The notes beneath the pieces were generated by a model that ran no database searches, was not told the origin of the DNA, and worked only from the letters and a program-made list of their open reading frames with translations. 64,000 nucleotides of DNA, from NCBI GenBank assembly GCA_016791475.1, contig JAEUWI010000041.1:1-64000 (forward strand), written 5' to 3'. The stretch is from Candidatus Hydrogenedentota bacterium (GTDB taxonomy: Bacteria > Hydrogenedentota > Hydrogenedentia > Hydrogenedentales > JAEUWI01). Positions 1,396 through 2,874 of this stretch are shown here, one piece after another. The position numbers were made by a program, and so were the translations under genes. Numbering within the stretch: the first letter of the stretch is position 1; the number at the start of each line of letters is the position of its first letter.

Positions 1396-1587
1396 TAAAA
1401 AGGAAAAATATTCAGATCCACCCTGGATCGGGAATAAATAACGGGAAAGAGGGTGTTTCATTAGTAGCGTCCGACAAAGGTCATTCCCCCTGACCTGAAG
1501 ACGCCATCAGTCAGAAATGACTGGTTCCCACCACCGGCGAGTGCAATTATAACAGTTCCCCCGCTGTTTGCACTCGCCTCTTTTTTT
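1396..1587 (+). ncRNA. Candidate small regulatory RNA with C-rich hairpin loops
   Basis: There is no plausible ORF here, yet the plus strand can fold into a chain of perfect hairpins ending in an intrinsic terminator: GATCCA-CCC-TGGATC (1415-1429), AGGTCA-TTCCCCC-TGACCT (1478-1496), CAGTCA-gaaa-TGACTG (1508-1523), and the terminator stem at 1536-1578, whose loop also contains CCCCC. Repeated C-rich single-stranded loops are a known feature of bacterial sRNAs that pair with G-rich ribosome-binding sites. A weak promoter (TTGAAT 1373-1378, 17-base spacer, TAAAAA 1396-1401) would start the transcript near 1408. Known: the loop chemistry of such sRNAs. Inferred: that this is one. It could instead be a relic or a long leader. 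Confidence 0.4.
1536..1587 (+). terminator. Rho-independent terminator (first of a tandem pair)
   Basis: A perfect 11-bp stem GGCGAGTGCAA (1536-1546) / TTGCACTCGCC (1568-1578) with a 21-base loop is followed directly by TC and seven T residues. No protein-coding gene on the plus strand ends upstream, so it must end a non-coding transcript or insulate the next gene. Confidence 0.8.
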
Positions 1588-1597
1588 GTCTTATAAA

Positions 1598-1631
1598 CCC
1601 CTGCAAACAAACATGTTTGCAGGGGGTTTTT
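1598..1631 (+). terminator. Rho-independent terminator (second of a tandem pair)
   Basis: A perfect 12-bp stem CCCCTGCAAACA (1598-1609) / TGTTTGCAGGGG (1614-1625) with a 4-base loop is followed by G and TTTTT. It lies only 10 bases after the U-tract of the preceding terminator. Confidence 0.8.
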
Positions 1632-1896
1632 CTGGAAAAAACGGGTTAGGAATGGATGAGTTTTCGCCCCCTTAAGGTAGTGAACCTATTGACAATCCTA
1701 TAGTTATCGCATATAATGCGCCCAATGTATGGCCCACTATCCGAATCCTTGGATAGACACTCTCTGAAATCCCCTCGTTTTGTGAGTTGACTTGCAGCGT
1801 CGCCTGCACGGTTGGGCCCCCAAGGCAACCACGCATTATATGCAATTCCAAAACCCGGCCACCTGAAAGGCCAATCTTATGTTACAGGAGACCATA

Positions 1897-2874
1897 ATGA
1901 CCATGAAATTCTCCACGGGACTCTGGGTGTTTTCCCACCACCCCGACCGGTTCTGCCCGGAAGGATACCGTGAATCCCCTAAGGTGTCGGAGGCGATCGC
2001 CCTGGCCGCGAAGATCAAGGGCCTCAAGGCGGTGGAAGTGAGCCAGACGGATATCTCCTCCGAGATGCCCGTAAAGGAAATGAAGCGCATACTCAAGGAC
2101 AACGGTCTTCTGTGCTCGGGCGTGAATACGAATCTTGGTCATACGCGACGCTTCGCCCTCTCCGGCTTCGGCCACCAGCACCAGAAGACCCGTAACGCCG
2201 CGATCGATGAAGGCCGCAAAGCGACCGATCTGGCCCGTGCGCTGGGCGCCACGGAAATCACGCTGCGCCTCTACACCGACGGCTTCGACTACCCCTTCCA
2301 GGTGGACTACACGGCCCACTGGAACACCGTGATATCCTCCATCAAGACGATTGCGAAGTACGCCTCGCCGGACATTAACGTGGCGATCGCCTACAAGCCT
2401 CGCGAACCCCGGAAGCATCTGACCGTGGCGACGGTGGGCAAGGCCCTTTCCATGTGCCAGGAAATCGCGATGAAGAACGTGGGTGTGGCCATGAATTTTT
2501 CCCACGCCATGATGTCCGGCGAGAACCCGGCGGAGTCCATCGCCTTCCTGACGCGTTCGAACAAGTTGTTCCAGATGTACTTCAGCGATGGCTACCGCCT
2601 CTGGGACGACGGCATGATGCCGGGCAGCCTGAACCTGTGGGAGACCATGGAAGCGCTGTTCTACCTGAAGTCCTCGAAGTACAAGGGCTATTTCACCATT
2701 GACATGGTGCCCCAGCGCATCGAGCCGACCCACGCGCTCCAGATTGCCATCGGCAACTTGAGCATCCTCTTTAAGAAGCTGGAGAAGCTGGACACCTCCG
2801 AATTGCGAAAGGCGCAGAAGACTCTGGACGCCACCGAGTCGCAGCGCATCATCCGCCGCGTCATGCTCCAGTAG
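1897..2874 (+). CDS. Xylose-isomerase-like TIM-barrel protein
   Basis: A 325-residue protein of the sugar phosphate isomerase/epimerase (AP endonuclease 2) superfamily, presumably a cytoplasmic metal-dependent sugar isomerase or epimerase. The start GLWVFSHHPDRF, the strand AVEVSQTD, the block VAMNFSHAMMSGENPAESI (equivalent to the xylose-isomerase NxxH-G-H region) and LFQMYFSDGYRLWDDGMMPGS are consistent with a divalent-metal site in the barrel mouth. An ATG exists at 1879, but AGGAGA at 1886-1891 sits 5 bases before ATG 1897, which makes 1897 the better start. A terminator follows at 2899-2932, so the gene is probably monocistronic. The substrate cannot be told from sequence. Confidence 0.8.
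   Translation: MTMKFSTGLWVFSHHPDRFCPEGYRESPKVSEAIALAAKIKGLKAVEVSQTDISSEMPVKEMKRILKDNGLLCSGVNTNLGHTRRFALSGFGHQHQKTRNAAIDEGRKATDLARALGATEITLRLYTDGFDYPFQVDYTAHWNTVISSIKTIAKYASPDINVAIAYKPREPRKHLTVATVGKALSMCQEIAMKNVGVAMNFSHAMMSGENPAESIAFLTRSNKLFQMYFSDGYRLWDDGMMPGSLNLWETMEALFYLKSSKYKGYFTIDMVPQRIEPTHALQIAIGNLSILFKKLEKLDTSELRKAQKTLDATESQRIIRRVMLQ

Follow-up and report, generated by a model that had tools for sequence, protein, structure and literature searches.

A conserved candidate small RNA with C-rich loops and a sigmaH/sigmaR-type promoter in Candidatus Hydrogenedentota

Introduction

The first 64,000 nucleotides of contig JAEUWI010000041.1 from a Candidatus Hydrogenedentota bacterium (the window) carry, close to one end, a series of hairpins that raises the question of whether a small RNA (sRNA) is encoded there and, if so, what switches it on and what it acts upon. 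A preliminary description of the locus had pointed to four hairpins in series that end in a textbook terminator, with a run of C exposed in three of the loops, and all of these elements are in the sequence: CCC in GATCCA-CCC-TGGATC (hairpin 1, 1415-1429), TTCCCCC and CCCCC in two of the hairpins that follow, and a T7 run after the terminator stem (Table 1). The accompanying statement that the plus strand is free of ORFs from 1109 to 1896 is accurate only for ORFs of more than about 36 aa that are fully contained in that interval; the next ORF opens at 1879.

The explanation that we favor, with a probability of roughly 0.6 based on comparative sequence evidence, is that the locus is a genuine, independently transcribed and usually single-copy sRNA gene of ~120 nt that would be switched on by an ECF sigma factor and whose product would probably pair with G-rich mRNAs without Hfq. 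The components of this explanation that can be read directly from the genomes are the RNA family, its structure, the promoter motif, the co-occurrence of that motif with superoxide dismutase (SOD) and SufB genes, and an undetectable Hfq.

Table 1. Features of the sRNA locus and its downstream neighbor (positions in the window)
Feature	Position	Strand	Description or evidence
Conserved promoter GGAATA-N18-GTT, sigmaH/sigmaR (ECF) type	1431..1457	+	-35 1431-1436; -10 GTT 1455-1457 (GTTT to 1458)
Candidate sRNA gene, ~120 nt	1465..1587	+	Covariance model R1 match 1.0e-34 in own genome; fold z -7.8
P1 hairpin	1467..1504	+	Outer stem 1467-1471/1500-1504; inner stem 1478-1483/1491-1496; loop UUCCCCC 1484-1490
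P2 hairpin	1506..1525	+	Near-invariant CAGUCA-GNAA-UGACUG core in most relatives; loop GAAA here, not C-rich
Linker GGUUCCCACCACC	1523..1535	+	Single-stranded except for the first bases, which can extend P2
P3 intrinsic terminator GGCGAGUGC...GCACUCGCC	1536..1587	+	Stem-loop 1536-1578; loop CCCCC 1558-1562; U-tract 1581-1587
Second intrinsic terminator	1598..1630	+	Terminator scan; no aligned equivalent in relatives, not conserved in the family
sigma70 promoter of downstream gene, TTGACA-17-TATAAT	1689..1717	+	12/12 consensus match
Syntenic neighbor, xylose-isomerase-like TIM-barrel protein (AP_endonuc_2)	1897..2874	+	PF01261, E 2e-20; ORF opens 1879, likely start 1897

Results and discussion

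Extent and distribution of the RNA family

The gene was originally proposed to begin at the promoter-like sequence TTGAAT (1373-1378)-17-TAAAAA (1396-1401), to include hairpin 1 and to give an RNA of ~180 nt ending near 1587. Both the promoter-like sequence and the hairpin exist, but neither is conserved in relatives and both lie 5' of the conserved promoter GGAATA-N17/18-GTT, and they were dropped as parts of the gene. As the conserved promoter sits just 3' of hairpin 1, we place the transcript at ~1465-1587, which retains the 3' end of 1587 and reduces the length to ~120 nt; the 5' end at ~1465 is deduced from the spacing to the -10 element and the start of P1. The region 1380-1600 had a folding z of -4.5 relative to shuffled sequences, and for the trimmed RNA (1465-1588) z was -7.8, with none of the shuffled sequences being equally stable.

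A DNA search of 60 relatives gave strong matches, to 5.5e-32, and these spanned several families within the order. When 29 aligned sequences were made into a covariance model (E cut-off 0.01), the sRNA was identified in 38 of 68 genomes of the phylum, mostly as one copy each, a count that takes in two weak calls, in genomes G055 (8e-6) and G039 (1.6e-4). Synteny indicates that the former is a real diverged copy; the latter, which has neither the P3 stem nor its C loop, appears to be due to chance. The G055 copy, from family f11, has lost P2 and has the loops CCCCUCCCC and UUCUCUCCC; a further decayed copy occupies the same syntenic place in another f11 genome (G047), and the sRNA is apparently missing from the remaining genomes of f11 and from those of family f7. 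Three copies were found in G060 and two in G013; G060 is listed as 7% contaminated, and so some of the copies may not be true paralogs.

A pattern scan of one genome per species (84,980 species) matched 29 stretches, 27 of them labeled Candidatus Hydrogenedentota or Hydrogenedentes and the other two "uncultured bacterium". The same scan of viral contigs gave no sRNA match, and a viral origin was set aside on that basis. No Rfam family matched the RNA of the window at the gathering threshold, and the matches below it (rli38 and others) were rejected as terminator look-alikes. A literature search for Hydrogenedentes or Hydrogenedentota together with small or noncoding RNA did not find a description of the sRNA.

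Structure and covariation

From 5' to 3' the RNA consists of P1, P2, the linker GGUUCCCACCACC and P3. P1 folds into a stable hairpin, with 10 or more pairs and a median z of -3.3, in each of the 38 distinct RNAs. Its stem sequence is hypervariable among genomes with pairing retained, around a near-invariant UCCCCC loop; CCCC or CCCCC is present in this loop in 38/38 RNAs, and an additional diverged copy (L095) carries CCC there. The loop of P2 is usually of the GNRA type, and some relatives have two-sided changes in its stem (e.g., CAGCCG-GCAA-CGGCUG in L025). The linker is near-invariant in the 29-sequence alignment, with its 3' part unpaired in all eight folds and its 5' part partly paired in one of them (L016). 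In P3, the basal 9 bp are invariant in 29/29 sequences and the upper stem covaries round an invariant CCCCC loop. A UUCCC(C/A)C-like motif occurs three times in the sRNA: in the P1 loop, in the linker and in the P3 loop.

The proposal that the locus encodes a small RNA had been made dependent on relatives maintaining the stems, and they do: 96.8% of the cells in the alignment are paired, compared to 23-42% in slid-alignment controls, 10 pairs show two-sided change, and the C-rich loops are nearly fixed. There are 46 double-change cells, a number that none of 500 shuffles reached, although it is important to note that these counts are inflated by the relatedness of the sequences. The variation in P1 represents separate evidence, as the outer stem of P1 lies outside the covariation count. 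The hallmark of a base-pairing sRNA, namely conserved structure, compensatory changes and fixed unpaired segments, is present in this RNA.

A promoter of the sigmaH/sigmaR type

In Actinobacteria, ECF sigma factors of the sigmaH/sigmaR type answer thiol-oxidative stress. The sole conserved block upstream of P1, located ~12 nt ahead of it, is GGAATA-N17/18-GTT, which could be aligned in nearly all sRNA homologs (spacer of 17 in 22 and of 18 in nine). It is identical to the sigmaH consensus of Corynebacterium glutamicum (GGAAT-N18-19-GTT), in which trxB1 has GGAATA-N17-GTT and sufR has GGAATG-N18-GTT (PMC10012870). In the 7.7-Mb genome to which the window belongs, GGAATA-N17/18-GTTT has 19 matches, versus seven for a reversed control, and the motif also precedes genes for a BI-1-like protein, a response regulator and one copy of RIC; as a perfect motif was found at only one of 15 RIC genes, these were dropped as general regulon members.

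The motif was scored within 230 nt upstream of oxidative-stress and iron-sulphur genes. Of the 28 SOD genes (among 30 loci) whose start was located by regular expression, 14 had a perfect motif, compared to 0.2 for a permuted-motif control; for SufB, 21 starts were located among 30 loci, and 14 of these genes had a perfect motif (control 0). Because starts were located in this way the counts are estimates, but the contrast is still large. Among ferritin genes, three of 30 had a perfect motif and 13 of 30 matched at least 8 of 9 positions (control 1.9). The background was low, as in 2 Mb of genome G001 the motif was near the start of two of 1285 called genes (control 1.6), one of which is SufB. 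Across Hydrogenedentota, the SOD and SufB upstream regions that were collected (L197-L256) show GGAATA-N17/18-GTT marking an apparent oxidative-stress/Fe-S regulon.

Since the same motif stands ahead of SOD and SufB genes yet near only two of the 1285 background genes, the most likely role of the RNA is that of a stress-regulon sRNA that works like the actinobacterial 6C RNA without being a member of that family. We infer that the sRNA is transcribed, that its sigma factor is of the sigmaH/sigmaR type and that it is induced by oxidative stress: such an ECF sigma factor would switch on the sRNA together with SOD, the Suf genes for iron-sulphur assembly and, in certain lineages, ferritin. Rough regular expressions for ECF sigma factors matched one ECF-like protein in each of two scans of the G001 DNA that was fetched; two earlier scans with crude patterns gave no match, and none of the four yielded the sigma gene itself.

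The region upstream of a ferritin gene in G027 (L102) has a 36-nt stretch (83%) in common with the promoter of the diverged G055 sRNA, including the palindrome GGAATAATTCC. A repressor site at this palindrome was considered and set aside; because the palindrome is missing from most homologs, a sigma factor promoter is preferred.

Possible partners and mode of action

Our proposal is that rigid stems would hold the three UUCCC(C/A)C-like patches open and that these would most likely pair with G-rich sequences in a small number of mRNAs, with no need of Hfq. Any particular target, and whether it would be repressed or activated, is purely hypothetical. Consistent with the last part of this proposal, Hfq (PF17209) was detected in none of the 68 genomes of the phylum, compared to five of 14 control genomes, and the sRNA is probably Hfq-independent.

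The idea that the C loops attack G-rich ribosome-binding sites found no support in G001. The linker and loops were compared with the start regions of G001 (466 and 1285 called genes, up to 2 Mb), and their complementarity was no better than that of shuffled seeds. Gene starts were called naively, and a handful of real targets would go unnoticed in a comparison of this kind; a broad role against ribosome-binding sites is thus less likely, but a narrow one may exist. The usual start-region motif of G001 is AGGAG/GGAGG, which the UUCCCCC loops match in part only. A search for 12-mers exactly complementary to the linker led to the sRNA itself, gene bodies and a repeat in G044, but to no convincing start region. 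That the C loops may attack ribosome-binding sites is an idea now drawn from the analogy with the 6C/B11 RNAs. The G044 repeat, AATAGCCCACCACTTCAGTGGTGGGAACC...CGTAGGGACGGCA, is dispersed (L178, L184, L187, L189 and L192-L196) and sometimes in tandem, ~69 nt apart.

The main rival to mRNA pairing is protein titration, in which the three patches would sequester an RNA-binding protein in the manner of CsrB/RsmZ-type RNAs with their GGA loops. The presence of the motif three times in one RNA and the lack of excess complementarity at start regions would both be accounted for, and so would the conservation in sequence, beyond pairing, of P2 and of the basal P3 stem. The invariance of the latter exceeds the need of a plain terminator and counts against the explanation that we favor. 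We nevertheless regard titration as unlikely, because the loops of the diverged f11 copy vary (CCCCUCCCC and UUCUCUCCC), a variation ill suited to a fixed site of protein binding, and because we know of no protein that binds the UUCCC(C/A)C motif in these bacteria.

Transcription unit and remaining alternatives

In most loci an AP_endonuc_2 TIM-barrel gene lies a few hundred nt downstream of the RNA on the same strand, and this synteny would be explained if the RNA were a cis-acting leader or attenuator (riboswitch-like) of that gene. However, the gene has a separate sigma70 promoter after the terminator, which points to the sRNA being its own transcription unit. A similar promoter is upstream of the AP_endonuc_2 ortholog in genomes without the sRNA, and since the gene keeps its own promoter there, and additional sRNA copies (in G013 and G060) adjoin other genes, a cis-acting leader is improbable. 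An inverted repeat (GCATATAATGCG at 1708-1719 and CGCATTATATGC at 1832-1843) overlaps the downstream promoter, one of its arms lying across the -10 element.

A housekeeping structured RNA (6S-, SRP- or tmRNA-like) that has diverged too far for Rfam would also be phylum-wide, mostly single copy and strongly conserved. It appears even less probable than a leader, given that there was no Rfam match other than sub-threshold terminator look-alikes, that the promoter is of a stress type unlike that of a constitutive RNA, and that most members of families f11 and f7 either lack the RNA or have a diverged form. A small protein gene, for which the ATG in P2 (opening a short frame, MTGSHHRRV..., and present in 33/38 RNAs) might speak, is very improbable, as the ATG is lost in 5/38 and has no ribosome-binding site ahead of it, indels in P3 shift the frame and the third positions of codons vary no more than the first two.

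Comparison with known systems

6C RNAs have two stem-loops, each loop with a run of about six C. The Hydrogenedentota sRNA is like the 6C family (including mycobacterial 6C/B11) in having two hairpins with C-run loops, usually of five C, in one short RNA and in occurring in bacteria without known Hfq. It differs in its extra P2 hairpin and conserved C-rich linker, in the location of its second C loop in the terminator, in its sigmaH/sigmaR-type promoter and in its phylum, and the Rfam 6C model (RF01066) gave no match at the gathering threshold or up to E 10. For B11 of M. abscessus, either C-rich loop is enough to repress eccB4, which has a G-tract in its leader (PMC10470900). We rate the sRNA as functionally closest to 6C/B11, not a member of that family by model match, and as a family new to Rfam.

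The loops of the Rhodobacter CcsR RNAs are C-rich as well. A stress sRNA with an alternative-sigma-type promoter, as proposed here, would resemble CcsR1-4 and other RpoE/RpoH sRNAs. CcsR1-4 are stress sRNAs under alternative sigma factors (RpoE/RpoH) in an oxidative-stress network; they arise by processing of the ccaF1 precursor and associate with Hfq (PMC8307010). The Hydrogenedentota sRNA, in contrast, stands alone behind a promoter of its own and occurs in bacteria in which no Hfq could be detected. The likeness to actinobacterial sigmaH/sigmaR (ECF) regulons lies in the promoter, GGAAT-N18-19-GTT; unlike those regulons, the putative one in Hydrogenedentota is known from its promoter motif, which marks SOD, SufB and the sRNA.

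Implications

For an uncultured phylum, these results establish from sequence a conserved, putatively regulatory RNA, along with the promoter motif of a putative stress regulon (SOD, Suf and partly ferritin). Tentatively, and with slightly more doubt than confidence, we suggest that the sRNA may belong, as a non-coding arm of ancient origin, to a sigmaH/sigmaR-like response to oxidative stress outside Actinobacteria, in which an Hfq-free triple C-rich motif either pairs with a few fixed mRNAs or titrates an RNA-binding protein. Because its loops are fixed while the stems vary, what the RNA partners with is a question that experiments can address directly. If our interpretation is true, Hfq-free C-loop sRNAs would exist in two distant phyla, and in Hydrogenedentota such an sRNA would be under a class of sigma factor otherwise known from actinobacterial thiol-oxidative stress.
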